Below, in pieces: positions 12,697 to 33,169 of a stretch of 41,390 nt of DNA (positions within the stretch are counted from its first letter, which is position 1; the number at the start of each line of letters is the position of its first letter). This DNA is from Dactylosporangium sp. GTDB lineage: Bacteria; Actinomycetota; Actinomycetes; Mycobacteriales; Micromonosporaceae. Under the pieces are notes generated by a model. The model was given only the letters and a program-made list of their open reading frames with translations, was not told the origin of the DNA and made no database searches. A program made the position numbers and the translations under genes. The stretch is from the NCBI GenBank assembly GCA_013041765.1, contig JABDRL010000148.1, positions 1 to 41,390 of the forward strand, written 5' to 3'.

Positions 12697-13056
12697 TCAA
12701 GCATCCGGATCGTCATGCCCCCCCGGGAGGCCTTCCAGGATGTGCCGAGTCAGGATACGTAGGCACGCATACTGTGCATATTGTCCGGTAGACCATACGT
12801 GTTGAGCATCGTGAGAAAGCCGAGATGCGGGTACCGGAAACGTTCGGCGCAGTGCTCCTTCCACAACCCGGATTGCCTGTTCCCCGGACACCACAGGGAT
12901 CTTCGCGAGCAGCGTGTCGAGTATCGCCTCGGATTGAGCGTCCCCCAGCTGGCCCAAGGCAAGGCTGACGTACCCAACCAGGTCCCCACCGAGATGTGGA
13001 ATGTCACTTCCCCCTCCCGCGCCGGACAAGGACCGGTCAGATCCTGCGGAGGTCAT
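12697..13056 (-). CDS. Small unknown protein at the end of the Hsp70/AAA+ operon
   Basis: From ATG 13056 the frame encodes 119 residues. It has a Gly-rich start, a helical segment (residues 24-70, with L-G-D-A-Q-S-E-A-I-L-D-T-L-L) and a Tyr/Gln-rich part near 92. I recognise no family. It lies 65 bases after the Hsp70-like gene on the same strand and is likely its operon partner. The frame is open further upstream into the Hsp70 gene, and no clear ribosome site was seen, so the start is uncertain. Confidence 0.45.
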   Translation of the reverse strand: MTSAGSDRSLSGAGGGSDIPHLGGDLVGYVSLALGQLGDAQSEAILDTLLAKIPVVSGEQAIRVVEGALRRTFPVPASRLSHDAQHVWSTGQYAQYACLRILTRHILEGLPGGHDDPDA

Positions 13057-13121
13057 CCGTTGTGAGGATCGTGCGGGGCCGTACGAATGCGGGTGTACTG
13101 CGACGCCACAGTCCCTTCTGA

Positions 13122-14735
13122 TCAGGACAACCGGACGACTGCTTGCTGGTCGAGGACCCACGAACGCCGTTCCAGATCGAAGGCCGAAACAGTCAGCCGT
13201 TTCTGCGCGTCGACGCGGAATTCGAGGCGGAATCGCTCGGCTCCGGCCCGACCGGGCGGGTTGGCCTCAAGGAACGTCGGACTGTCCTCATTAAGCCACA
13301 GGCTGGAGCGCTCCTGGAGTTGCTGGCTCGTCACAGACACGGCCCGCGCGCCGCCCTTGGCGTCGAACATGATTTCCAGATCTGCGCTCGCGTCCCGGTA
13401 GGTGGCGTGTGCGCGTTCGTAGATTGCCAGGCCAAGGTTCCGCTGCCCGTCCCGGACCGCCCTGATCATTATCGTCTTGATGGGCGTCGGCGTGGGGTAC
13501 TCGGTGCCAGCGGGCACAAGCGGCTCGAACTCGTACACCCCGGTGTCCCGGTTGACGTGGCGAATGACGTAGTCGTGCTGGATGTGGTCGTGGAGTTCAT
13601 ATCCACCCGCGATCCCGGCGGCACCGGCGGCAACCGCTTCCAGCGGTCGGTCGATGCGCACCCGATCGCGCGGGAATTGCATGTACACGATCTCCTGGAT
13701 AGCGGGGATGAGGCTGGTACCGCCGACCAGAAAGACGTGACGGATCTCATCAGCGAGATAGCCGGCCGCAGCGGCCTTGTCCAGGGCCGCGCGAAGGGTT
13801 CGTCCGACGCGGCTGGTCACATCCTTGTCCCGCAGCAGCGAGTCGAAGTCGCCTCGCGTGAGGTCCGCGGTGTACTCGGTGCCGGTATCCGGATCGACCG
13901 CGGAAATGGTCGCCTGGGACCCGCCGGTCAAGGCCACTTTCGCGGATTCAGCCGAGCGCAGCAGTTGCCCGAACACCTGGTTGTACAGGTGGGCGTCGCC
14001 AAACGGCAGCCGGGCCTGAGTCGCGACATGCTCTGCCAGCAGGATGTCGATGTTGTCGCCGCCGAGGTCGATGCCGCACTTGCCGACCACCCGGACGCCA
14101 GCGCCGCCGCGCTGGCTGGATTGGGAAGCCTGTACCCGCACCACTGAGATGTCGAGGGTGCCGGCGCCGAAGTCGAACACCAGGAAGGTGTCGCCGGGGT
14201 TGAGCCGGGCGCTGTAGCCGACAGCGGCGGCCGTGGCCTCGTCGACCACGCGGAGCCTGGCCAGCCCGATCTGGTCGCCGACCTCACGGACCAGCCAGTC
14301 TCGGTAGGTGTCGAACGATTCCACCGGTGCGGTTGCCACGATCTCGAGATCGGCGGCGTCAACGGCGAGCATGGTCGCGGCCATCACGTCGGTCAGGAAC
14401 TGGGTGGCCGCCTGTCTCCGGCTGATCGACCGGGCGCCGACGATTCGTGGGATGTCCTTGATCCGGCCGGTGATGACATTCTTCGTCGATTGGAATACCG
14501 CGTGGCGGGGGTCTCTGAACATCTCCGGAGTCACGCTGGCCCCGACGACCCTGAGGTCCGGATCGGTGGCGTAGGAGATCCGCGATGGCACCACCCGTTG
14601 GGTGACGCCGGCTGCTCCTGGACGTAGAAGGTCCAACGCGCCCAGGTCGATCGGCTCGCCTCGGTTCAGCACGTCGTCCCAGCGCGCCACGACGGTGTTC
14701 GCGGTACCGAAATCGATGCCGATCCGGGTCGCCAT
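13122..14735 (-). CDS. Hsp70/DnaK-like ATPase
   Basis: The 537-residue protein starts M-A-T-R-I-G-I-D-F-G-T-A-N-T-V-V-A, the phosphate-1 motif of the actin/Hsp70 fold. F-D-F-G-A-G-T-L-D-I-S-V (phosphate 2, near 188) and V-F-L-V-G-G-T-S-L-I-P (adenosine motif, near 328) are also clear. The C-terminal part of about 150 residues is beta-rich and replaces the full peptide-binding and lid domains of DnaK, so the client may be specific. AAGGA lies 7 bases before the ATG. It follows the HEAT/WD40 gene by 10 bases and no DnaJ or GrpE gene is near. Confidence 0.88.
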   Translation of the reverse strand: MATRIGIDFGTANTVVARWDDVLNRGEPIDLGALDLLRPGAAGVTQRVVPSRISYATDPDLRVVGASVTPEMFRDPRHAVFQSTKNVITGRIKDIPRIVGARSISRRQAATQFLTDVMAATMLAVDAADLEIVATAPVESFDTYRDWLVREVGDQIGLARLRVVDEATAAAVGYSARLNPGDTFLVFDFGAGTLDISVVRVQASQSSQRGGAGVRVVGKCGIDLGGDNIDILLAEHVATQARLPFGDAHLYNQVFGQLLRSAESAKVALTGGSQATISAVDPDTGTEYTADLTRGDFDSLLRDKDVTSRVGRTLRAALDKAAAAGYLADEIRHVFLVGGTSLIPAIQEIVYMQFPRDRVRIDRPLEAVAAGAAGIAGGYELHDHIQHDYVIRHVNRDTGVYEFEPLVPAGTEYPTPTPIKTIMIRAVRDGQRNLGLAIYERAHATYRDASADLEIMFDAKGGARAVSVTSQQLQERSSLWLNEDSPTFLEANPPGRAGAERFRLEFRVDAQKRLTVSAFDLERRSWVLDQQAVVRLS

Positions 14736-14745
14736 GCGTCGTCCT

Positions 14746-17196
14746 TCAGGTCAAAGCGATGTCGTACTCGCCGGTGGCGAGGGTGACGGTGTCGCTGATT
14801 TCGATATCGAACCGGAATCGGTGTTCCAGGCATGTCTGGAGCAGATCGAGTATTTCGGCGGACGGTCCGGTCACCACCCGGGCACGTCTGGCAGCGGTCA
14901 ATATACCGAGGTGCGCGGGCACCATGGCCGCTAGCGGACGAGTCGCCAGTGCCGGAACGTCCCCGATACGCAGATCGTAGAGATCGGTGAATCCGGCCGC
15001 GAATCCCACGGCGAGGAAGTCCCCGCGCGGGGCGACGTGCACGCTCGTGGCCTGTCCGTCGCCCAGCCCGGGAACGGTGCCGGTCGCGGCGAACGTGGTC
15101 TGGTTGTGGAAATGGAGGTCGCCTTCCCGGCTGGCTATCACGATCTGCCGTCTGGGCCCGACCGGTGCCAGCCCGCCCAGGCCCGGCACTGAGGTCCGCG
15201 CGGTCGGACGTAGGTCGTTGTGGACCCTCCGAAGGAGATTGACGTTGCCACGCTGGTCGGAAGTAGCCAGTAGATCGGGTTCGAGCAGGACCGCTCTGGC
15301 CACGACGGTCTGCTGGTAGCCGCGGGCCAGCACTCGCGAGGCAGTCGAGTCCGTCAGCGTGAGGCTGCGGCCGAGCACGGCTAGCCGCTCCCCGCCCGGA
15401 TCCGCGGCCACCGCCCGCGGCCAGTCCTGGTCGTGGTCCAGCCCCAGCCGCGATACTGGCACCCGCGTCGGAGCCGCGTCGCCAACCGCTCCGAGCAGGA
15501 GGTCCCCGGCGCGGGTGCCCGCGACGAACCGGCCGGCGCCAGCCGGTGCCAGTGCCGTCACCGGCCCGGAGACCTGTGCCACGGTCGCCAGTTTCCGATC
15601 AGCGCAGCGCAGTATCCGGCACGGGTTCGTCGTGCTGTTCGTACGCTCGCCTGCCAGGAACGTGCCACCGCCAAGGTGCAGAACCCGGCCGACCGATGCA
15701 GCGAATCCGTCATACCGTTCAACGAGCCGCCCGCGGGTAAGGTCCACGACGCCCGCGACGCGGGCCGTTCCGGCTACCACCAGGTGCGGCGTGTCCGGCG
15801 CGAACGACACGTCGTTGACTCGCCCTTGAAACGTGACCCGAGCCTGCCGAACCGCCGGTGGCCAGATCCCGAGCAGGTCGTTGACACCGCGTTCGAGGAC
15901 GCTCGCGTCCACGGCGACCAGCCTGGCGAAAAGCTCGCGGGAGTCGCCGTCCCCCGGTTGCCACCCGTCGCTGAACAGCGCCATCAGGTGTGCCGCGCGG
16001 ACCACCGGCAGGTCCAGGAGGATCTGCCACAGGTCTGCCCATGCACCGCGTGCGGCCAGCTGCTCGGCCAGGTACCGGATCTCGGCCTCGGTCATCGTCT
16101 GGATACGTCCGCGCCGGTCCTCGCCGACCAGCACCCGGACCAGGTCCAGTCCGCCACCGGACAGCATCGCCTTCCGGAGACGGGTGCGGGTTGCCTGGTC
16201 CGCACTGGCGTACGCCAGTGCCAGCAGTGAACCGTCCGGGTCGAATGCCTGCAGCTGGTCCGGCTGGCCCGTCAGGGCAAAATACACTGAGCGACGAACA
16301 GGATCGGCCGGCGCCAGTCGGTTCGTCCGGCAGAACGACACCAGTTCCGGACGTGTCATCGCGGTTTCGCAGACCGCGTCCACAAGATCCTGATCGTCGG
16401 CATCGATGATCTTCTGCTGGGCGAGTGCCGCGATGGGGTGGTCTCCCCGACGGCTGGCGGCGTCGAGCAGCGTGGCCCGCATGTCAGGCGCCGCCAGCCG
16501 GCGAGCATCGGGTTCGATGGCCACCAAGCTCAATGCCCGCACGTCAGCGGTAGATCCGGGCATCTGCCAGCGGCTCAGCGACCGCCACAGCGTCTCGTGC
16601 GGCGTCGCCAGCCAGGTCCGCCACAGCGCGTCCAGCGACCGGGCGGGAGCGGGTGACGTGGCGGCGAGCAGCACCATCGGCAGGGGGCCGGACCACCAGG
16701 GATCTGTCCCCGGCTGCGACCGCTGCCTGGTCAGTGCCTCGACGACCTCCCACAGTGCAGACAACATGCCGGGATCAGCCGCCCGCACCGCGGCCAGCGT
16801 GCCGGCGCGGACATCGGGGTCCGGATCGGCCAGCAACGTCGGCGTGACCCGCACGTCGCTGACCGACCAGTACTCGGTCAAACGGTTGTGGAGTGCTGCG
16901 GTGACCAGCCGGGCCGGCCCCTCCGCGATCGCGCCGGTCCGGCGGACAATCTCACGCAGACCCAGGTCACGACTGCCGCACCACAGGCTGGCGACCGCCG
17001 ATCGCGCGTCGCGGCGTCGCGGTGCTGCCGGCTCGGCCACCAGCCGGCACAGCAGACCGAGCGCAACCGGATCGCCGTTGCCCGCCGATGTGGTCAGTTT
17101 CCGCCACGCACGCCGCGCCCAGAAGCCAAATGCGCCACCTGCGTCGGCGCGCGCCGCGCGATGAGCCAGCCGCTGCGCGCGACGCTCGCTGAGCAT
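14746..17196 (-). CDS. Large scaffold: helical HEAT-like repeats plus WD40-like propeller
   Basis: From ATG 17196 the protein has 816 residues. The first half (about 1-440) is rich in Leu/Ala helices in HEAT-like pairs (for example D-P-D-P-D-V-R-A-G-T-L-A-A-V-R). The second half (about 450-780) has beta-propeller strands with turns like V-N-D-V-S-F-A-P-D-T-P-H-L-V-V-A-G and G-G-E-R-L-A-V-L-G. No catalytic motif was seen. Such a build suggests protein binding or recognition. It lies between the AAA+ gene (23-base gap) and the Hsp70-like gene (10-base gap), so it probably forms a complex with both. Confidence 0.7.
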   Translation of the reverse strand: MLSERRAQRLAHRAARADAGGAFGFWARRAWRKLTTSAGNGDPVALGLLCRLVAEPAAPRRRDARSAVASLWCGSRDLGLREIVRRTGAIAEGPARLVTAALHNRLTEYWSVSDVRVTPTLLADPDPDVRAGTLAAVRAADPGMLSALWEVVEALTRQRSQPGTDPWWSGPLPMVLLAATSPAPARSLDALWRTWLATPHETLWRSLSRWQMPGSTADVRALSLVAIEPDARRLAAPDMRATLLDAASRRGDHPIAALAQQKIIDADDQDLVDAVCETAMTRPELVSFCRTNRLAPADPVRRSVYFALTGQPDQLQAFDPDGSLLALAYASADQATRTRLRKAMLSGGGLDLVRVLVGEDRRGRIQTMTEAEIRYLAEQLAARGAWADLWQILLDLPVVRAAHLMALFSDGWQPGDGDSRELFARLVAVDASVLERGVNDLLGIWPPAVRQARVTFQGRVNDVSFAPDTPHLVVAGTARVAGVVDLTRGRLVERYDGFAASVGRVLHLGGGTFLAGERTNSTTNPCRILRCADRKLATVAQVSGPVTALAPAGAGRFVAGTRAGDLLLGAVGDAAPTRVPVSRLGLDHDQDWPRAVAADPGGERLAVLGRSLTLTDSTASRVLARGYQQTVVARAVLLEPDLLATSDQRGNVNLLRRVHNDLRPTARTSVPGLGGLAPVGPRRQIVIASREGDLHFHNQTTFAATGTVPGLGDGQATSVHVAPRGDFLAVGFAAGFTDLYDLRIGDVPALATRPLAAMVPAHLGILTAARRARVVTGPSAEILDLLQTCLEHRFRFDIEISDTVTLATGEYDIALT

Positions 17197-17219
17197 CCTC
17201 GTCTCCCGCAGCCTCGGCC

Positions 17220-18761
17220 TCAGGCCAGTTCCAACCGTACCTGGGCCTGCGCGGCCAGGGAGGCCTCGGCAAAGGAGGCGGACTGGGCCCGGCCCTCGCG
17301 TAGCCACGCCCGCAGGTTCTCAATCGTCTCGCGCTGGGAGCGACTCAACGGCACCATTCGCCGAATCGCGGCAGCCACGTCCTCGGTAACGATGTCGCGA
17401 CCGCCTTCCGAGAACGCCCGGTACATGGCGTCGATGATCGCCTGTTCCAGTTCCGCGCCGACATAGCCATCGGAGACCCGGGCGAGGAGCGCGATGTCGA
17501 ACATGCGCGGATCGCGGCCTCGCTTGCGCAGATGCACGGCAACGATTTGCCGCCGCTCGGCTTCTGCCGGCAGGTCGAGGAAGAAGATCTCGTCGAACCG
17601 ACCACGGCGCAGCATTTCCGGCGGCAGCGCGCTCACGTCGTTCGCTGTGGCGACGACGAACACCGGTTTCGTCTTCTCCTGCATCCAAGTAAGGATCGTG
17701 CCAAACACCCGCTGGCTGGTGCCGCCGTCGTTGCCGCCGTTGGCCAGCGACTTCTCCAGTTCGTCAATCCACAACACGCACGGGGCCACCGTCTCGGCAA
17801 GGTCCAGGGCCCGGCGCACCCGCTCCTCGGATTCGCCGACCAGGGAGCCGAACAGTGCCCCGACGTCCAGCCGTAGCAGCGGTAGCCGCCACAGTCCACC
17901 GACCATCTTCGCGGTCAGGCTCTTGCCCGTACCCGGAATGCCGATCAGCGCGACGCCCTTCGGGGCGGGCAGCCCATATGCGACGGCCTCGTCTCCGAAC
18001 GCTCGTTCCCGCAGCTCAAGCCAGTGTTTGAGGACTTCTAGGCCGCCGACATCGTCGGGGGTCTCCTCGGCGGAGTAGAACTCGAGTGCCTGAGACTGAC
18101 GGATGACCGCCTTCTTCTCCTCCAGCACGGCCTGAATATCGCGTTCATCGAGAACCTGGTCTCGCACAATGGCCTTCGCGAATGCCCGGTTCGCCTGCGT
18201 CGAGGTCAACCCGAGCGCTGCCTGTGCCAGGCGCGCCCGGCCGTGCGGCGTCAGCTCCGCGTGTACGCCCCTCGTCTCGTTGATCAGGTTGTCGAGCTGC
18301 ACCCGCAGGGCGGCAGCATCAGGTAACGGCATGTCCACAACCACGACATCGTCGCTCAGCTCCGCCGGCACCTCCCTGCCGGGCATCGTGACCACCAAGG
18401 AAGCGCCGGTGAACACCAGTCGGTGCGCCAGGTTTCGAATCTTGCGCTTCACCGCCGGGCTCTTCGTCCAGAACTCGTGAAAGTCCTTGAGTACGTACAG
18501 GTCACGTCGGGCCGATTGGGCCTCGACCATTTCACGGATCTTCTCCAAGGCCATCTCCGGGCTGGCCGCCTCCGGCATCTGCCGGCCGCTGGTGGACCTG
18601 AGCCGGTCCGCGATGTCCCACGTGATGAGGTCCGCGTTGGCATCCCGATCCCGACGGACCTGATCCAGCACCGCCAAGGCGCGCTGCTCCTCGACCGTGA
18701 TGAGAACGATGAGGGGAACCCTCGCCCGCAGATACAGCCTGATCTCGTCGGCGATCGTCAT
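17220..18761 (-). CDS. AAA+ ATPase, Ycf46-like
   Basis: The 513-residue protein has an N-terminal domain (1-225) as in the Ycf46 family of chloroplasts and cyanobacteria, then one AAA+ module: Walker A G-I-P-G-T-G-K-S (274-281), Walker B V-L-W-I-D-E (329-334), sensor 1 V-A-T-A-N-D and arginine finger region M-L-R-R-G-R-F-D (383-390). It is the predicted motor of the locus. Its ATG overlaps the stop of the radical SAM gene by 4 bases. The pairing of Ycf46-like and Ycf35-like (DUF1257) genes is also seen in cyanobacteria, where the role is unclear. Confidence 0.88.
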   Translation of the reverse strand: MTIADEIRLYLRARVPLIVLITVEEQRALAVLDQVRRDRDANADLITWDIADRLRSTSGRQMPEAASPEMALEKIREMVEAQSARRDLYVLKDFHEFWTKSPAVKRKIRNLAHRLVFTGASLVVTMPGREVPAELSDDVVVVDMPLPDAAALRVQLDNLINETRGVHAELTPHGRARLAQAALGLTSTQANRAFAKAIVRDQVLDERDIQAVLEEKKAVIRQSQALEFYSAEETPDDVGGLEVLKHWLELRERAFGDEAVAYGLPAPKGVALIGIPGTGKSLTAKMVGGLWRLPLLRLDVGALFGSLVGESEERVRRALDLAETVAPCVLWIDELEKSLANGGNDGGTSQRVFGTILTWMQEKTKPVFVVATANDVSALPPEMLRRGRFDEIFFLDLPAEAERRQIVAVHLRKRGRDPRMFDIALLARVSDGYVGAELEQAIIDAMYRAFSEGGRDIVTEDVAAAIRRMVPLSRSQRETIENLRAWLREGRAQSASFAEASLAAQAQVRLELA

Positions 18762-19339
18762 CCGAGCTCCCTGCCCGCGACGGCCACCATCCCGGTGACC
18801 ATCACCGTTCCGTCCGGTCCGACCAGCACCTCGGCATCCGGCACCGCCACGAACATGCTCGTCGAGTACCGGCCGGTCCGGGCCCAGTACTCCTTGTTGG
18901 CCGATCCGCGCAGCCCCGAGCCGAGATGGAGGCGCTGGTCATATCGACCCGCGATCACCGTGTCCACCCCGGTCACCGCCGCTGCCAGGGTGGGGCTCGA
19001 CTCGATTTCACTACGGCTGTATCCGGTCAGCACGACAATGCCCAGCCCGGCGGCGCCCACCATGTCCGCGAACGCCGCCAGCGCCTCCGGCTGCCGCAAC
19101 GGCTCACCACCGGTCACGGTCACGCCCTCGATCCCCGGTGTGGTCAGCACCTCGTCGGCCACCCCGTGCACGGCCCTGGTGAAACCGCCGGTGGCGGGAT
19201 GGGCGTCCGGGTTGAAGCACCCGGGACAGGCCAGCGCGCAGCCCTGGGTCCACACCACGAACCGCTCACCTGGGCCGTTGGCCAGGGAACGCGGCACCGT
19301 CGCATGCAGTCTCCACGGCGTGGCCTGGGCTAGTGCCAC
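18758..19339 (-). CDS. NrdG-like radical SAM protein
   Basis: The 193-residue protein has the iron-sulfur motif C-A-L-A-C-P-G-C (Cys 34, 38, 41; C-x3-C-x2-C) after G-E-R-F-V-V-W-T-Q-G, and the SAM-binding G-G-E-P-L near 98, as in activators of anaerobic ribonucleotide reductase. No NrdD gene is near, and the gene overlaps both neighbours. A task within the AAA+/DUF1257 locus, for example activating or modifying a partner protein, is more likely. Target unknown. Confidence 0.85.
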   Translation of the reverse strand: MALAQATPWRLHATVPRSLANGPGERFVVWTQGCALACPGCFNPDAHPATGGFTRAVHGVADEVLTTPGIEGVTVTGGEPLRQPEALAAFADMVGAAGLGIVVLTGYSRSEIESSPTLAAAVTGVDTVIAGRYDQRLHLGSGLRGSANKEYWARTGRYSTSMFVAVPDAEVLVGPDGTVMVTGMVAVAGRELG

Positions 19340-19530
19340 AACCGGTCCTGCTGTTCCTCATCCACCTGTACGTATGCCTCGGCGGTCAGTTCCTGACTCT
19401 CGACGTCACCGCCGAGCAGCGCGATCAGCTCTTGGGTTTCGGCGAGACAGGCCATCCCCTCCACGCCGCGCAGGTGCATGTCCACCTTGCCCTCGGCGCT
19501 GATGGTCACCTCGACGATCTCCTCGGCCAT
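19330..19530 (-). CDS. DUF2997 protein
   Basis: The 66-residue protein starts M-A-E-E-I-V-E-V-T-I-S and has G-V-E-G-M-A-C-L followed by the T-Q-E-L helix, as in DUF2997, a small family that travels with DUF1257 and radical SAM genes. The single Cys in this motif could be the site acted on by the radical SAM enzyme (inference). The gene starts 3 bases after the DUF1257 stop and overlaps the radical SAM start by 10 bases. Confidence 0.75.
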   Translation of the reverse strand: MAEEIVEVTISAEGKVDMHLRGVEGMACLAETQELIALLGGDVESQELTAEAYVQVDEEQQDRLWH

Positions 19531-19533
19531 GCG

Positions 19534-19923
19534 CTACGCCCCCACTCGCCGCAACACCACTCGGATCTCTCCTGAGGTCTTCTCGGTTTGTTCCTGCACT
19601 TCAAAACCCTTGGCCGCCAAGGTGGAAATGGTGCCGGCCAGGGCATACTCACGGGTCAGGCGCTGCATGAACGGTTGCTGCCGCACCACACGAACACCCC
19701 ACCAATCGGCGATGACGGTGAATCCGCAGCCTGGCTTCGCCACGAATCCAATCTCGTATTTCGTCCCGGACGGGCGCACTTTGAAAGCGGCATTCGCTTT
19801 CTGCCCTCGCCAGCCGTGCACCCCGCCATCGGGTGAAAGAACCTCGTGGCCCATCCGGGTAAGCGCCTCCCGCAGGGTCCGCTCATCAACCAGTCTCGTC
19901 CGCACCCGCGTGAAATGCGACAC
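19534..19923 (-). CDS. DUF1257 (Ycf35-like) protein
   Basis: GTG 19923 is chosen because AGGAG lies 5 bases upstream; the frame is open seven codons further. The 129-residue protein starts V-S-H-F-T-R-V-R-T-R-L, a hallmark of DUF1257, and has F-T-V-I-A-D-W-W-G-V near 76. Family function is unknown; relatives occur in plastid and cyanobacterial genomes as Ycf35. It is the first gene of the tight set DUF1257, DUF2997, radical SAM, AAA+. Confidence 0.8.
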   Translation of the reverse strand: MSHFTRVRTRLVDERTLREALTRMGHEVLSPDGGVHGWRGQKANAAFKVRPSGTKYEIGFVAKPGCGFTVIADWWGVRVVRQQPFMQRLTREYALAGTISTLAAKGFEVQEQTEKTSGEIRVVLRRVGA

Positions 19924-20010
19924 CTGCACTCCTCCCCGTGGCACGAACGGCGCCCATGAAGAAAAATCAGCGATCAGGCTTCAGTGGCCTGCATGGTAGG
20001 CCCGCCGTGG

Positions 20011-20225
20011 CTACGGAATGCCGTGCAACGCGACATCGCACGGCCCAGAAGCCCGGTCTTCACCCGAAGGTGTGAGCATCAGGTGCCGGCCGATCTGGAA
20101 CATTCCCTGCGATTTCGTCTCGGGATCCTGAAACAGCTCCAGGAACCGTGCCGGCAGCCGGGGGTGAAGGCTGGCGTCGATCTCGTCGAAGAGCAGCAGT
20201 TGCCCGCGAGGCAGGGCACCTGCTG
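20011..20225 (-). pseudogene. Fragment of an ABC-like ATPase (AAA_15/21 or OLD type)
   Basis: In a frame ending at TAG 20011-20013 one reads R-G-Q-L-L-L-F-D-E-I-D-A-S-L-H-P-R-L, a textbook Walker B and signature-adjacent segment of ATPases found in retron, Gabija and OLD-like proteins, followed by A-R-F-L-E-L-F-Q-D-P-E. The His switch that should follow is gone, and so is the upstream Walker A part. The remnant sits between the MazG-like and DUF1257 genes. Confidence 0.6.
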
Positions 20226-20300
20226 CTCGGCGGCCCGGTGCACGACCGGGCGCGCCCGCCGGCTGGTGTCCCGCGCCGCGGATAGCACGGGCACGGGCAA

Positions 20301-20681
20301 CTACACCCGGTACTTCTCGAGGATCGCCGCGGTCTGGCCCTCCAGCCGCTTCCTGGCCCGCTCTTCGGCGATTCTGCCGATGTCCTCGGGGTTACGGCCG
20401 AGCCAGCGCAGCACGTTGAGCGCAATGCTGATCATGTCGATGCCCTCGTTGGCCGCGGCGTCGGGCCTGCCGTTGTCGAGGTGTTCCTGCATCTCCTCGA
20501 CCTGGCGTCGGAGGGCCTCCCGAAAATGTGCCAGGGGCAGCTCGCGGACCTCGCCGTCCGCCACGTCCCACGCGTTCCAGATCGGCTGGAACGGACCGAG
20601 CGCTGGTCCCCCATTCCACAGGGCGGACGACGCCGGGGCGGGACTGTCAGTTCCGGAATCCGAACCCTGGTTGGGCCGCAT
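20301..20681 (-). CDS. MazG-like nucleotide pyrophosphohydrolase (tentative)
   Basis: ATG 20681 has AAGGAG 5 bases upstream and gives 126 residues. After a disordered start the helical part has E63-x-x-E66, then 12 residues, then E79-x-x-D82, followed by I-S-I-A-L-N. This matches the metal-binding E-x-x-E/E-x-x-D pattern of all-alpha NTP pyrophosphohydrolases (MazG, dimeric dUTPase). It lies 31 bases after the Crp gene and is probably co-transcribed with it. It may remove or shape a nucleotide signal. Confidence 0.55.
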   Translation of the reverse strand: MRPNQGSDSGTDSPAPASSALWNGGPALGPFQPIWNAWDVADGEVRELPLAHFREALRRQVEEMQEHLDNGRPDAAANEGIDMISIALNVLRWLGRNPEDIGRIAEERARKRLEGQTAAILEKYRV

Positions 20682-20712
20682 GACCGCTCCTTCGTCGTGC
20701 ACCATGTCGGTG

Positions 20713-21387
20713 TCAATCACTTGTGGAGATCGTCCGCAGCGCATCGAGATCGTGCAGCACGATGCGTTGCCGGCCGGTGGTCACCAGCCGCTGCTCGCGC
20801 ATCCGCCGAAGCTCGATGGCCACGGCTTCCCGGGAGGCACCGATCCGGCTGGCGAGATCCTGCTGCGACAGCGTCGCCGCGATGATCATACTGCCGTCCG
20901 GGTACGGCTCGCCGACCTCGCCGGCCAGTTCGAGCAACCAGCGGGCCAAGCGACTCTTGACGTCGAGCCGGGCGAGTAGCGCACGCCGGTCGGACTGCCG
21001 CCCCCGCTGCACAGCGGCTCGATACATCACCGGCCACAGGTCATGCTGGCCAACGAAGTCGAGGAGGTCCTCGGCCTTCACCTCGATGCCAACAACCTCC
21101 GTGATGGTGGTGACGGTGGCGGATCGCGGTTCGCCCATGAGTACGCCCTCGTCACCCATGACTTCGCCGACGCCGCGAATGGCGAGGATCATCTCCGCTC
21201 CGTCGGCCGCGACTCGGGTGACTTTGACGCTGCCGCTCTGGATGAGCAACACCCAGTGTGGATGTTGCCCCTCACGGAAGATCGTTTCATCAGCCCGGTA
21301 CCGGATCGGCTCGCCGAGGGATTCCAGTGCCGTGCGCTGACCCTCGGTCAGCACATCCATGATGCGGACGAGCCTGTCTTCCGCCAT
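20713..21387 (-). CDS. Crp/Fnr-family transcription regulator
   Basis: The 224-residue protein has a cyclic-nucleotide-binding domain (about 15-130) with G-E-V-M-G-D-E and P-R-S-A-T-V-T, so the phosphate-binding R-S-A is kept, a long dimer helix, and a Crp-type HTH (L-S-Q-Q-D-L-A-S-R-I-G-A-S-R-E-A-V-A). Its ATG lies 8 bases after a GTGTAGTACTGCAC near-palindrome and 7 bases after a TACACT -10 box, which points to leaderless translation and self-control. The same promoter precedes the cyclase operon. Confidence 0.9.
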   Translation of the reverse strand: MAEDRLVRIMDVLTEGQRTALESLGEPIRYRADETIFREGQHPHWVLLIQSGSVKVTRVAADGAEMILAIRGVGEVMGDEGVLMGEPRSATVTTITEVVGIEVKAEDLLDFVGQHDLWPVMYRAAVQRGRQSDRRALLARLDVKSRLARWLLELAGEVGEPYPDGSMIIAATLSQQDLASRIGASREAVAIELRRMREQRLVTTGRQRIVLHDLDALRTISTSD

Positions 21388-21473
21388 AGACGACAGTGTA
21401 GTACTGCACGCAGCGCTATGACCAGCGACGTCTTCACATGTAGATCAATCTGAGTTCTGGTGTGGACCTCTCC
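21388..21473 (-). promoter_or_regulatory. Copy 1 of the duplicated promoter/operator (crp side)
   Basis: The region holds GTGTAGTACTGCAC (21396-21409), a 14-bp near-palindrome around AGTACT, and CTTCACATGTAG (21432-21443), a second partial dyad, 36 bases apart start to start. On the minus strand TACACT (21395-21400) is a -10 candidate placed 7 bases before the ATG. I counted 66 identical bases of 86 with the copy at 23066-23151, without gaps. The first dyad overlaps the -10 (repression is likely); the second is near -50 (activation possible). Confidence 0.7.
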
Positions 21474-21497
21474 AGGACGCACCGGTGGACAGCGGTT

Positions 21498-22961
21498 TCA
21501 ACACGCCTCCTGGCGTGCCTCCGGCAACCGCGACATCGCACCGCTCCCACCGGCCAGGGACATCCAGCCCGCTATCGGCGATTCGTTCCGCTTGGCCTGG
21601 ACCTTGAGCCGCTGGTACGCGGCCGGATCCACGAACCCGCCAGCGTGCTTGATCACTGTGTCGTACACGTGGTCGGACGCGATGAAGGCCAGGTCCGCTT
21701 CCATCGTGGCGAGTGCCCGCTTGAGCACCGGGGCGTCGAGCAGCCGCGCGGTGTGGATCAGGGAGTGCCCGGACAGGCCCGTATGGTCCACACGGACCGG
21801 CCCGACGTGCAGAGCCGCCCGCAGCTGGATCCGCACCGGACTTCCCGCCCTGCGGTTGTGCCGTCGCAGCCTGGCCGCCAGCAGAGCGATCAGCGGCTCG
21901 ACCAGCGAAACGGTCGACACCGTGGGCGGAACAACGGTGAGAATGCCGTCGCCGCGGTCCTCGTGGATGCACCTCTGCCAGGGCACGTTCGATCCCTCGA
22001 ACGATTCCCGGAGCATTGTGTACAGGGCGTTGTGGACCACTCGCCGATCATCGTCGTCGCGGCTCGGATCGCCGAAGGCGGCGATATCGGTGAAGAAGAT
22101 CGAGTGGTTGAGTGGCATTGTTCCGGGCAGGCTGGACAGCGCCTGGTCGGACCGTTGCGAGGCCAAGTCGCCCGCCGGCGTTCTGTAGATCTTTTCCAGC
22201 CCGGCGGCGTCAACGACGGTGACGTGGCGTTGCGCGACGTGAACGACCCCGCGTTGCTGCCAGGAGTTGAGGTACCGGTCGACGGCCTCATCCGGTGCAT
22301 CGACCCAGTCGGCAAGTTCGGTGCAGGACATCGGCAGGGTGATCGTCACCGCGCCGTCCCGCTCATACCCCCCGCGGCGAAGGGCGAACTCAAGGAGCAG
22401 GCTGGCCAGCCGACGTTCCTTGCCGACCGACTCGCCGTGCGGCACACCCCCAAGGTCCTCGGCTTGGCGCTCGTACTCCTGGCGCTTGAGAACCTCGAGG
22501 ATGTGCGGGTGCTCGATCAGCAGTTCGTGAAACCGGTCTGCCGTAACCACCAGGGCCTGCACGTTCTCCAAGGCGACGACCGTGGCCGATCGGCCTGTTT
22601 TGACGAGAGCAGCCCGCTCTCCGATGGTGTCTCCCGGCCCCCGCACGGCAATGATTCTCTCCCGGCCCTCCGCGGCTACCGTGACTTTGGTCCAACCAGA
22701 TTCGATCATAATGACGTCGGTCGTGGTGTCGTCCTGCCAGCACAGCGTCGTTCCGCCCCCGAACGCCTGCTCCCGCGCCGCCGCGGCAAAGGCCTTCCGC
22801 TCGGTGGCGTCCAGCGAATGCCAGAAACTGCGCTGCGCCGGGTACTCCCAGCGTCGCTGTACCAGAGTGGACCCGGCATCGCTGGCACGTTCGAAGCTGT
22901 GCGAACCCCTCGACGCCGACGCTCTTGACTCGCCGTCCGTCGTGCCACGAATCTCGATCAT
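21498..22961 (-). CDS. Crp-like sensor fused to a class III nucleotidyl cyclase domain
   Basis: The 487-residue protein has a cyclic-nucleotide-binding domain (45-160; G-D-T-I-G-E-R and G-R-S-A-T-V), a Crp-type HTH (180-255; C-T-E-L-A-D-W-V-D-A) and a C-terminal class III cyclase-like domain (285-480). Both metal-binding Asp are visible: D292 in F-F-T-D-I-A-A-F and D338 in R-G-D-G. The usual Asn of the V-N-x-A-A-R-L motif is replaced (L-I-H-T-A-R-L, Arg 406 kept), so activity or product may differ. The ATG follows GGGAGGGGAGG and overlaps the stop of a 35-codon leader. Confidence 0.8.
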   Translation of the reverse strand: MIEIRGTTDGESRASASRGSHSFERASDAGSTLVQRRWEYPAQRSFWHSLDATERKAFAAAAREQAFGGGTTLCWQDDTTTDVIMIESGWTKVTVAAEGRERIIAVRGPGDTIGERAALVKTGRSATVVALENVQALVVTADRFHELLIEHPHILEVLKRQEYERQAEDLGGVPHGESVGKERRLASLLLEFALRRGGYERDGAVTITLPMSCTELADWVDAPDEAVDRYLNSWQQRGVVHVAQRHVTVVDAAGLEKIYRTPAGDLASQRSDQALSSLPGTMPLNHSIFFTDIAAFGDPSRDDDDRRVVHNALYTMLRESFEGSNVPWQRCIHEDRGDGILTVVPPTVSTVSLVEPLIALLAARLRRHNRRAGSPVRIQLRAALHVGPVRVDHTGLSGHSLIHTARLLDAPVLKRALATMEADLAFIASDHVYDTVIKHAGGFVDPAAYQRLKVQAKRNESPIAGWMSLAGGSGAMSRLPEARQEAC

Positions 22962-23065
22962 CGCCGCCTCCCCTCCCTGCGGTGCCCGCGTCCCGGAGAG
23001 GCCAGCGCCAACCCCATGAGCTGAACGGCGCCGACCGCTTGATTCACGGCACTGTTCTCACGCAT
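22958..23065 (-). CDS. 35-residue upstream ORF coupled to the cyclase gene
   Basis: ATG 23065 stands at the same distance (8 bases) from the promoter palindrome as the crp ATG in the other promoter copy. The frame has 35 codons, is basic at its end (R-R-E-G-R-R-R) and stops with TGA overlapping the cyclase ATG (ATGA). Its codons contain the cyclase ribosome site. This fits a leaderless coupling ORF; a functional peptide is possible but not shown. Confidence 0.5.
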   Translation of the reverse strand: MRENSAVNQAVGAVQLMGLALASPGRGHRREGRRR

Positions 23066-23151
23066 ACAAGATAGTGTAATACTACACATAGTTTTATAAT
23101 CAGAAACATCTTCACGTGTAGACCAGTCTGAGTTCTGGTGTGCACCTCTAC
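23066..23151 (-). promoter_or_regulatory. Copy 2 of the duplicated promoter/operator (cyclase side)
   Basis: GTGTAATACTACAC (23074-23087) and CTTCACGTGTAG (23110-23121) lie at the same spacing as in copy 1, and a third shared block (TCTGAGTTCTGGTGTG) starts at 23127. TACACT on the minus strand (23073-23078) is the -10 candidate. No good -35 is present, as expected for an activator-dependent promoter. Most differences from copy 1 are G/C to A/T, making this copy more AT-rich. Confidence 0.7.
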
Positions 23152-23819: not shown

Positions 23820-25103
23820 CTACTGCTCGATGGTGGGATCGGTGACCCTCCCGATGAATATCGGCGTCGCGGTGGCGACGTCATGGATGACGAACAGGAA
23901 GGGCCGATCGGCCACGACCGTGGGCCCGATGGCGGTGCGGTCGATGATGACGGCGGTGGCCGCGGCGGCCTCGGTGCCATACTCGTCCACCGCGATGAAC
24001 GCCTCATGCACGACCTTGCTGATGGACAGGCCAGCGGCCGAGCTCATGCCAGAGAAGTCGGCCAGTGCGCTGAACGCGGTCGGCATGCCCAGGCGTGCCA
24101 GCAGGTCCCCCAACTCGGTCGGCAGGCGGAAGGTCCAGCGTGGCAGGCGCACCCGCACCGGCAGCTGGACGAACCCGGTCAGCAGGTCCCGCAGCCACCG
24201 CTCGTCGACGCGCTGCTCGAGCGAGGCCAGGGCACCCGGTTCCGGGACGACGATCGCCATCGCCAGCCCCGACCCGACGTACGGCAGGTCGACCGCCCGC
24301 CAGTCCCCGCCGCTGAGGTATCCGATGTCGTTCGTCGGCGACGCCATCATCGGCACCGACACGGTTCCGCCATCGTCGCGGGCGAAGGCCGCCGGCTCGG
24401 TGGCCTCCTCCGGGAAGGGGAACTGCCAGTTCGCCTTGAGGTAGATGGCGTTGGTGAGGACCAGGCAGGTCATCGGAGTCAGCGCGCCCTGCGCCAGCAA
24501 CTCTGGAATCCGCTCGTTGGTGCGGGCGCTGACCCAGGCGTTGATCTCCTGCCGTGCGGCCTCGGTCGCACCCCAGAAGTCGACCGAGTTGGCCCCGGCG
24601 CCGTAGTACCGGGCGAGGATCCCCAGGAACGCCTCCTCCAGCGGGAGGTCGTACTGGGTCCACAGGGCATTCGCGGTGTCCAGGCGCGGGCATTCCTCGC
24701 CGCTGCCGCCGGGATCGTGGTAGGCGGCGACCAGCAGCTGGTCGAGGGCATTCAGCCCGGCGTCAAGGGCCTGCGGCCGGGGCGTCGGCGCATGCAGAAC
24801 GGTGTCCATCTCCTGGGCGGTCACGCCGGCGGCTCCGGCCCGGGCCATCGCCAGCGCCATGACGGCGGAGTACGGCGAGCACACCAGGTTGTTCCGCTCG
24901 TCACCGGTCAGGGCCAGGTCGCGGTACATGTCGGCGGTGAATCCGCGCACCGCCCCGGCCGCCGCGGCGATCGCCGCCGGGTCGGGTTCGGCCCGTTCCA
25001 CCAGGGACATTCGCGGATCGAGGATGAGCGGGCGCCGTGCGCCCCAGGCCATGGCGGCGACACTCAGCGGCACCGCCATCAGGCACGACCTACGAGAGAC
25101 CAT
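23820..25103 (-). CDS. Serpin (serine protease inhibitor), probably exported
   Basis: The 427-residue protein has a signal-like start with a twin-arginine pattern (S-R-R-S-C-L-M) and a full serpin domain: N-L-V-C-S-P-Y-S-A, T-N-A-I-Y-L-K-A-N-W near 222, the hinge E-Y-G-T-E-A-A-A-A-T (374-383), and the end R-P-F-L-F-V-I-H-D. The Ala-rich hinge is what inhibitory serpins need for loop insertion. By counting from the hinge, P1 is near Thr 390 with Arg 389 before it, so elastase-like or trypsin-like targets are possible. No ribosome site was seen; the start may be leaderless. Confidence 0.92.
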   Translation of the reverse strand: MVSRRSCLMAVPLSVAAMAWGARRPLILDPRMSLVERAEPDPAAIAAAAGAVRGFTADMYRDLALTGDERNNLVCSPYSAVMALAMARAGAAGVTAQEMDTVLHAPTPRPQALDAGLNALDQLLVAAYHDPGGSGEECPRLDTANALWTQYDLPLEEAFLGILARYYGAGANSVDFWGATEAARQEINAWVSARTNERIPELLAQGALTPMTCLVLTNAIYLKANWQFPFPEEATEPAAFARDDGGTVSVPMMASPTNDIGYLSGGDWRAVDLPYVGSGLAMAIVVPEPGALASLEQRVDERWLRDLLTGFVQLPVRVRLPRWTFRLPTELGDLLARLGMPTAFSALADFSGMSSAAGLSISKVVHEAFIAVDEYGTEAAAATAVIIDRTAIGPTVVADRPFLFVIHDVATATPIFIGRVTDPTIEQ

Positions 25104-31178: not shown

Positions 31179-32762
31179 TCAGAAGGGCCAGTCGGCGTCG
31201 CGGCCGGCCTCGATGAGCGGGATCATCCGGAAGGTGGCATCGGTCAGCCCACCGAACTCGACACGGTTGGTTGTTCCCGCGTCGAAGGCGGTGTGCCGGT
31301 AGCCGCCGAGGTTGAACCCGTACAGCGGGGTGCCGCGGGGCAAGACGGCGGTGACGTTGCCCGTGCCGCGGCCCGAGGCAAAGGTCTGCATGTCGCTGAC
31401 GACGAACACGCGGTCGTGGCCGCGCAGGGTCGCTTTCACCGACTCGGCGATCCGGGTGCCATGGCCGACCTCTCCGACCCGCCGGACGAACCGGTCCGCC
31501 TCGCGGATCACCGACGCCCCCCGGCGGACCTCGTGCCGGAACACCCCGGTGGCGAAGCCGCACAGGTCGACCCGCTCACCACGGGCGGCGAGCGCGACGG
31601 CGAACACGGCGGCCGCCTTGACCGGGGTCATCGTGGACCTGGCGGAGAGTCCCCGCGAGGCCATCGACGCCGACGTGTCCACGAGGATCAGCGATCGACC
31701 GGACAGGGCCGGCAGGTTCGCCAGCGACATTCGCAGAGCGCTGTCCAGCGCGTGACCCCACCGCAGGGAGGGCGCGTGCTCGTAGGCGGCGAGGAACCGC
31801 ATCGGCAGCTGCCTCGACCGGGCCACCTCGGTCGGATCGGTCAACCGGGCGACGACCTGGTTGGCCGCCTGGTCACCGACGCCGGCCTCGTCGAAGTTGC
31901 GCAGGTTCCGCAGCAACGCCATGTAGCCCATCGTCGGGATCAGCGCCGTCCACAGCCGCGCCTTGTCGAGCGTCGATCCGGCCAGGGACAGCACGTCCTC
32001 CCAGGTCATGCCGGCCCGGGACAGAGCGTCGGGGTCGAGCAGCACGGTCGGATCGTCGGCCGCCGCGCGACGCAGTGTCCCGTTGGCCGCCAGCATCCGC
32101 AGCGCCGTCGGGGTCTGGTCGTCGTGACCGTGCCGGCGGTCGAGCGCATGCCCGAACAGTGCACCCTGCCAGGACTTGTCGCCGGCCGGCGTGGGATGCA
32201 CCAGGTCGATGACATCGCCGAAGCGGAACCCGTGGGACGCGGTGTCGTACTTCAGCAGCGACCGCTCGGTGTAGAGGCGGGTCGCGGCGTCGGCGATACC
32301 GCGCTTGACCGGCTTGGGCACCGCCCGCCCGTGGCGTGCCATCCAGTAGGCGAGGGCCTCCCCCGGCTCGTCGGCGCGCCGCAACACCGAATCCACGATC
32401 TTCCGCGACCCGGGGATGGACGCGGCGACCATCGCGGCCGAGGCCTCCAGCGCGCCGACGATCGAGGCAGAACGCATGTTGGCGGCCGAACGCAGCCAGC
32501 ACAGGAAACGTGCGATCCACTCCGGATCGGCGGCGGCGACGCGGTGGACCAGGTCGACGTAGCGCCGGTCGCGGTCGGTGGCCTTCTCGTAGAACGTGTC
32601 CTCGGCGACGAAGTTGGACACGGCGAGCAGAAACAGCTCGCTGCGGGCGTCGTGGCGGTAGCCGGCGCCGCCCTCGTGGGTGCGGCCGGACGGGGCCGCC
32701 TCGGCCGCGATCGGGCCTTGGCCCGCGGCTGCCTTGATCGCTACGGTGTTGAACTTGCTCAC
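31179..32762 (-). CDS. TROVE-domain protein, Ro60/Rsr-like
   Basis: GTG 32762 follows GGGAG at 5-base spacing and gives 527 residues. A helical-repeat TROVE ring (about 40-340; S-E-L-F-L-L-A-V-S-N, then W-L-R-S-A-A-N-M-R) is followed by a vWA-like domain with MIDAS D-T-S-A-S (362-366). Bacterial Ro proteins bind misfolded RNA and Y RNA and help nucleases in RNA maturation and stress decay. No polynucleotide phosphorylase or RtcB gene is near, and I could not identify a Y RNA. The frame is open upstream, but that part is not Ro-like. Confidence 0.9.
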   Translation of the reverse strand: MSKFNTVAIKAAAGQGPIAAEAAPSGRTHEGGAGYRHDARSELFLLAVSNFVAEDTFYEKATDRDRRYVDLVHRVAAADPEWIARFLCWLRSAANMRSASIVGALEASAAMVAASIPGSRKIVDSVLRRADEPGEALAYWMARHGRAVPKPVKRGIADAATRLYTERSLLKYDTASHGFRFGDVIDLVHPTPAGDKSWQGALFGHALDRRHGHDDQTPTALRMLAANGTLRRAAADDPTVLLDPDALSRAGMTWEDVLSLAGSTLDKARLWTALIPTMGYMALLRNLRNFDEAGVGDQAANQVVARLTDPTEVARSRQLPMRFLAAYEHAPSLRWGHALDSALRMSLANLPALSGRSLILVDTSASMASRGLSARSTMTPVKAAAVFAVALAARGERVDLCGFATGVFRHEVRRGASVIREADRFVRRVGEVGHGTRIAESVKATLRGHDRVFVVSDMQTFASGRGTGNVTAVLPRGTPLYGFNLGGYRHTAFDAGTTNRVEFGGLTDATFRMIPLIEAGRDADWPF

Positions 32763-33169
32763 AGCGTCTCCCTTCCGTTCTGGACAGCCGCGTTTGGATC
32801 CGAGTGGTGCCCCTCCGAGATCTTCAGGCGCCGCGCCGGCATGGCGTCTCCCAAAGAAGTAGCCGACAGGCTTCGCACCGGAGGTGCCGCGCCAAGGCGG
32901 CGGGGCGGCCAGCGCCCGCCGGCCCACGACCGGGGCGGCGGGACGCGACGACAACACACCGCCCCGTCCGGATTCGGAGGGGCGGCGTTCCACGTCGCGC
33001 TGGATACGCTACGTCCGCCATCGATCGGGATCCGGCATGCCCACGTGGCCGCCGGGGGAATGCCGCTGTGGTCGCCGAGCCCGCCACATCTTCACGGTCA
33101 CCATTCCCCTCCCGCCGGTCCTCGTGGTGGGCAGAACGATACGACCGGGTTCCGAGACCCGGCAACGCA
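32763..33169. other. Non-coding stretch upstream of the Ro-like gene
   Basis: No open frame here is convincing. It contains a strong stem-loop (32959-32985) and a smaller one (33145-33162). Its position next to a Ro-like gene makes a structured RNA possible, but the tRNA-like fold of known bacterial Y RNAs was not found. Confidence 0.4.
32959..32985 (-). terminator. Strong stem-loop, 7 + 4 bp with one bulge
   Basis: CCGCCCC and TCCG pair with CGGA and GGGGCGG around the loop GATT, leaving one unpaired G. It may end transcription of the decayed regulator cluster upstream or be part of a structured leader RNA of the Ro-like gene. Confidence 0.45.

Follow-up and report, generated by a model that had tools for sequence, protein, structure and literature searches.

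The Ycf35 (DUF1257), DUF2997 and Ycf46 proteins of cyanobacteria and plastids have long been unexplained, and what has been reported about their genes points to iron and redox. In cyanobacteria, a DUF2997-ycf35 cluster includes the 4Fe-4S ferredoxin Fed7 (PMC4284462), while the presence of ycf35 and ycf46 in red-algal plastids tracks habitat, a pattern that its authors connect with iron (PMC5940233). Furthermore, the slr0374/Ycf46 operon responds to iron deficiency and oxidative stress, and its mutant affects carbon use (PMC7496141). Another comparison is offered by the NTP-dependent conflict systems described by Kaur et al. in 2020 (PMC7159879), FtsH ternary and GTPase-Hsp70 types among them, which follow a logic of AAA+ or Hsp70 ATPases combined with repeat scaffolds, include radical SAM proteins in a subset, and are common to actinobacteria, cyanobacteria and chloroflexi. 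The description of these systems names no DUF1257, DUF2997 or Ycf46.

The six-gene set that we describe here shares features with both groups. It has homologous DUF1257, DUF2997 and AAA+ genes in common with the cyanobacterial and plastid set, and in both an Fe-S partner is adjacent, i.e., a radical SAM protein here and the ferredoxin in cyanobacteria. However, the cyanobacterial and plastid set has no Hsp70, GrpE or scaffold. Unlike the systems of Kaur et al., the conserved set described here does not comprise vWA, MoxR, VMAP, FtsH, GAP1 or TRAFAC GTPase components: Pfam finds no vWA domain in its proteins, its AAA+ protein is of the p97/Ycf46-like and not the MoxR or FtsH type, and no TRAFAC/GAP1 GTPase is detected by Pfam in the operon or seen repeatedly around the related loci. 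No component is named as part of a known system in PADLOC or NCBIfam, and no dedicated PADLOC model was matched, the similarity returned being of a general AAA+ (IetA) and cNMP-binding (Pycsar) kind. We found no description of the six-gene set in the open-licence literature, though one may exist elsewhere. From its sequences, we propose a function for the set. It spans many bacterial phyla and methanogens without bearing a name as a system in the family libraries that we searched, and the partners that it provides for Ycf35, DUF2997 and Ycf46 yield a testable hypothesis on their role.

Results

The window, i.e., the whole stretch of DNA that was analysed, is a complete contig of 41,390 bp (C320) from a draft genome of 5.19 Mb in 434 contigs that is 94% complete and 5% contaminated. 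The core system consists of six minus-strand genes between positions 13122 and 19923. They encode a DUF1257 protein of the Ycf35 family that starts with MSHFTRV (19534-19923; Pfam PF06868, E 7.1e-17), a small DUF2997 protein with an invariant Cys28 (19330-19530; PF11211, E 3.4e-13), an NrdG-like radical SAM/Fer4_12 protein (18758-19339; PF13353, E 2.1e-21), a Ycf46-like AAA+ ATPase of the p97 clade (17220-18761; PF00004, E 6.8e-29), an alpha-helical repeat/WD40 scaffold (14746-17196) and a lid-less Hsp70-like chaperone (13122-14735; PF00012, E 2.9e-32). Scaffold and Hsp70 are 57% and 80% identical, respectively, to their counterparts in the nearest system locus, Rhizocola L012 (Micromonosporaceae), and relatives such as this one mark the genome as probably actinobacterial.

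All open reading frames listed in the initial annotation of this DNA were re-found on the minus strand, and its account of overlaps and short gaps tying DUF1257 through Hsp70 together holds for the spacing after two corrections. The DUF1257 frame is open up to a GTG at 19944, but homologues and an upstream GAGGAG favour the GTG at 19923, which is probably the start. The scaffold frame is open up to 17307, though the start that is homologous among relatives is the ATG at 17196, leaving a gap of ca. 23 bp after the AAA+ gene in place of an overlap of 88 bp. Pfam bears out the domains assigned to DUF1257, DUF2997, radical SAM, AAA+, HSP70 and Crp. In contrast, the supposed MazG-like gene (20301-20744, minus strand) has no Pfam match, and the small gene placed at the end of the cluster (12697-13161, minus strand), which lies outside the system, has no family match in Pfam, PADLOC or NCBIfam. 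Because the latter frame also has no homologue in related loci and an atypical GC content by codon position (0.72/0.54/0.58), it is probably not a gene.

Three further minus-strand features lie beside the core. The presumed ATPase fragment (20014-20205) is a remnant of 64 amino acids of the AAA_21/RloA type, resembling an ATPase that adjoins RloB on a Geminocystis plasmid (tblastn E 2e-5). Upstream of the core lie a Crp-family regulator (20713-21387; PF00027, cNMP_binding, and PF13545, HTH_Crp_2) and a Crp-cyclase fusion (21498-22961) with PF00027 and PF13545 in its N-terminus. The cyclase half of this fusion has no Pfam match at E<=0.01, but the D and GDG motifs are discernible by eye and it matches cyclase-like regions in other genomes. 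The Crp, Crp-cyclase and MazG-like genes, the ATPase remnant and the terminal frame are all missing from the 80 related loci described below.

The Hsp70 tail served as query in a scan of ca. 85,000 genomes, which revealed these 80 loci beyond the window, spread over Actinomycetota, Chloroflexota, Cyanobacteriota, Planctomycetota, Verrucomicrobiota, methanogens and others. The scaffold matched nothing among plasmids by tblastn and only its own genome among 149 genomes of the phylum, just as the Hsp70 at E<=1e-60 found only its own genome among 200 order-mates. To count families, profile HMMs derived from the window were iterated over the open reading frames of 82 sources, i.e., the 80 loci, a plasmid locus and the window. 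Hsp70 was present in all 82, DUF1257 in 67, DUF2997 in 55, AAA+ in 49, radical SAM in 46 and GrpE in 26, alongside a scaffold in 71, for which single distant matches are weaker than for the other families because the iterated profile with its WD40 repeats is permissive. Of all 82 sources, the window alone has the Crp, Crp-cyclase, MazG-like and small terminal frames. Where at least 19 kb of sequence was available, all six families were found in 24 of 39 loci, and in most of the others the families not seen would lie beyond the available flank, which tandem scaffolds fill.

Gene content is conserved across the 80 loci and gene order partly so, with Hsp70 and DUF1257 adjacent 51 times. GrpE, encoded in about a third of the loci, is absent from the actinobacterial clade of the window and present in a second actinobacterial clade. 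The radical SAM gene seems locally dispensable, given that five of the six cyanobacterial system loci do without one. On a Pseudanabaena plasmid, a single cluster comprises GrpE, Hsp70, DUF1257, DUF2997, a WD40 scaffold and an AAA+ gene (60% identity), with an ATPase gene and a small gene breaking into it. The flanks of these loci add no component that different phyla share beyond the six families and GrpE; their main recurrent genes reflect lineage synteny or common families. Two loci include a gene with an FGE-sulfatase domain within the system cluster (L070:6283-7026 and L085:2239-3015).

The catalytic proteins are largely intact. Homologues of the radical SAM protein carry CX3CX2C in 44 of 45 cases and both NGPG and GGEP in all 45. 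The CX3CX2C core is common to NrdG and the glycyl-radical activases, and NrdG is also the top NCBIfam model, but the window protein scores 79 bits against a cut-off of 126; we therefore rejected a class III RNR activase locus. The operon has no glycyl-radical partner gene, and none is recurrent around the related loci. The AAA+ protein, whose nearest solved structure in the PDB is p97/Cdc48, has intact Walker A, Walker B and Arg-finger-like motifs that are found in 46 of 47 homologues, and it is ca. 60% identical to cyanobacterial plasmid homologues. The Hsp70 (537 aa) shares its ATPase domain with HscA and DnaK (111 and 102 bits, respectively, both far below the curated NCBIfam cut-offs) but differs from them in having no lid and a short beta-type tail of its own with the sequence HIQHDY. 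The motif H[IV]QHDY is present in 82 of 82 homologues, though it was itself also a scan pattern.

The two small proteins and the scaffold are less readily classified. Across 53 DUF2997 sequences, C28, G14, G22, G25, T32 and L39 are invariant, and the housekeeping copies of cyanobacteria have the cysteine as well; the predicted structure is of low confidence (pLDDT 65). The AlphaFold2 model of DUF1257 reaches a pLDDT of 93.8 and has no Foldseek match in the PDB at E<=0.001, while its best alignment to KA1 and TBP-like domains with VIA-align (Z 7.0) is within background. The scaffolds are diverse and fast-varying, and in actinobacteria two or more often stand in tandem. The one in the window is by itself marginally WD40-like (Pfam E 0.006), and the Pfam WD40 model matches 36 of 53 aligned scaffold homologues.

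The association between the genes extends from individual loci to genomes. DUF1257 is encoded in 36 of 36 genomes carrying this Hsp70, whereas a sample of 296 genomes from the window's phylum has it once, in the genome of the window itself. In a class sample it occurs in two of 345 genomes, and the second one, Frankia nepalensis, also has an Hsp70 locus (L038). Among 201 Chloroflexota genomes, three encode DUF1257, i.e., the centre genome of the sample, one with the full system (L151) and one with AAA+ and DUF1257 only (L152). Six genomes without DUF1257 at the Hsp70 locus encode it on another contig together with DUF2997/radical SAM and/or AAA+. Pairwise distances of AAA+ and Hsp70 correlate with r=0.93, and all component pairs tested gave Mantel r values of 0.60-0.93, which none of 999 permutations reached, with the species phylogeny not being factored in. 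These correlated matrices indicate co-inheritance, and by all these comparisons of sequences the six families, joined by GrpE in roughly one locus out of three, are shown to recur together and to be co-inherited.

The initial annotation had treated DUF1257 through Hsp70, including the scaffold, as one system, which recurrence, co-occurrence and correlated distances confirm. It had also allowed for a chance assembly should the core never be found with the WD40 or Hsp70-like genes elsewhere; the core recurs with both in the 80 loci. As far as gene content and distances can tell, the arrangement is far beyond chance, and the presence of DUF1257 in all 36 Hsp70 genomes together with the correlated distances led us to reject a chance assembly.

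DUF1257, DUF2997 and AAA+, with or without the radical SAM gene, also occur in the absence of Hsp70. Such cores are found on plasmids of Geminocystis, Rhodococcus, Paenarthrobacter and Bacillus, in Rhizobium phage RHph_I4 and on cyanobacterial chromosomes, where they take the form of a DUF2997-ycf35-4Fe4S ferredoxin cluster or of Ycf46 adjoining DUF1257. Some of the actinobacterial and Bacillus plasmid cores have DUF2997 and radical SAM genes but no annotated DUF1257. The phage matches to DUF1257 are remote, with ca. 20-28% identity, and those to AAA+ have ca. 34%. In the loci studied here, an Hsp70-scaffold layer comes in addition to the core. On a plasmid of Treponema succinifaciens, a contractile-injection-like cluster also includes a Ycf46-like AAA+ gene and a radical SAM gene (L008).

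Discussion

We tentatively favour, at somewhat less than an even chance, an ATP-driven chaperone or remodelling machine whose likeliest role would be to make, activate or repair a redox or Fe-S client under iron or oxidative stress. This proposal builds on the conservation of the genes, their co-inheritance and their intact catalytic motifs. The scaffold, often in two or more tandem copies, would recruit the client or target complex, which the Hsp70 and the p97-like AAA+ protein would then unfold or remodel while consuming ATP, the Hsp70 being assisted by GrpE or by an exchange factor that the cell already has. The radical SAM protein would supply Fe-S or radical chemistry, a place that may be taken in cyanobacterial housekeeping copies by the 4Fe-4S ferredoxin beside DUF1257/DUF2997. 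DUF1257 and DUF2997 may serve as adaptor and carrier, and the invariant DUF2997 cysteine, likeliest to be the modified or cluster-holding residue, is a candidate modification target. The cyclase genes upstream in the window appear to be neighbours and not the control circuit.

The AAA+ and radical SAM motifs, intact nearly throughout, and the mostly housekeeping flanks support such a machine. On the other side, no client enzyme is encoded beside the system loci, most cyanobacterial ones have no radical SAM gene, and scaffolds that vary fast and stand in tandem, like the patchy spread among actinobacteria, resemble what would be expected if changing targets were recognised. What ties the system to iron is known from relatives in plastids and cyanobacteria rather than from the version with Hsp70. 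A more specific form of the proposal is possible, if on the unlikely side: an undescribed bacterial and archaeal machine in which Hsp70 and the p97-like AAA+ protein drive radical-SAM modification of DUF2997 on an alpha-repeat/WD40 scaffold, with the plastid genes ycf35 and ycf46 as remnants of its ancestral core. If true, Hsp70 and AAA+ chaperones would be unusually coupled to radical-SAM chemistry.

The main rival to the machine is a role in conflict with phages or plasmids, in which the scaffold would sense an invader protein, Hsp70 and AAA+ would set a threshold and remodel, and the radical SAM protein and DUF2997 would make a modified toxic or signalling product. In FtsH ternary systems, a peptide effector is the presumed substrate of the radical SAM enzyme (PMC7159879). 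Besides the patchy actinobacterial distribution, evidence for it lies inside or beside individual clusters: EcoO109I-type and TdeIII-type endonucleases and an N6/N4 methylase between scaffold and Hsp70 genes (L060:4981-7868), an AAA_21 ATPase and small open reading frame between DUF1257 and DUF2997 in Pseudanabaena (L006:6149-7722 and L050:4739-6306), RloB and a zeta toxin by the Geminocystis cluster that has the core alone, and the AAA_21-type remnant in the window itself. However, the 112 flank proteins that we ran through Pfam and PADLOC are mostly metabolic or housekeeping, with each listed PADLOC family matched by one flank protein, and in Anaerolineaceae the locus sits in stable housekeeping synteny. 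There is no conserved nuclease, protease or pore effector, and for the system's own proteins PADLOC yields only the generic AAA+ or Crp similarity. The conflict system suggested by the initial annotation is possible in view of the defence genes inside a few relatives, but with flanks mainly of housekeeping genes we consider it somewhat unlikely.

Another explanation is that two modules, DUF1257/DUF2997/Fe-S/Ycf46 and Hsp70/GrpE/scaffold, merely travel together, as the cores without Hsp70 and the separation of the halves onto different contigs in six genomes might suggest. Yet this Hsp70 never occurs in a genome without DUF1257, and the gene order interleaves both halves, down to the frequent adjacency of these two genes, which makes independent modules rather improbable.

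Finally, the initial annotation had placed the system under a private cyclic-nucleotide circuit formed by the adjacent Crp and Crp-cyclase genes, a reading that we consider very improbable: the genes are contiguous and on the same strand in the window, and in actinobacteria CRP-like regulators are tied to certain conflict systems that process peptides (PMC7159879), but the circuit is missing from all 80 related loci, belongs to an expanded actinobacterial family of up to 11 copies per genome (Actinomadura) that in other carriers sits on contigs other than the system's, and has no CRP-type palindrome near the operon (a search gave four weak matches where 10 would be expected by chance, all beyond 25.7 kb). 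Going by the sequence comparisons, the cyclic-nucleotide genes appear to be unrelated neighbours, though they may co-regulate the operon locally in this single genome. The same genome has a second cluster of Crp, Crp and cyclase genes (C317, L145, 5314-10139) that, as recognised by eye, adjoins a radical-SAM maturase-like gene and a large STAND/TPR-like protein. This pairing could be taken to favour control of the six genes by the Crp-cyclase circuit, but it also suggests that such circuits pair with various operons. Elsewhere, the window encodes a bacterial serpin (23820-25103; PF00079, E 1e-92) and a TROVE/Ro60-like protein (31179-32993).
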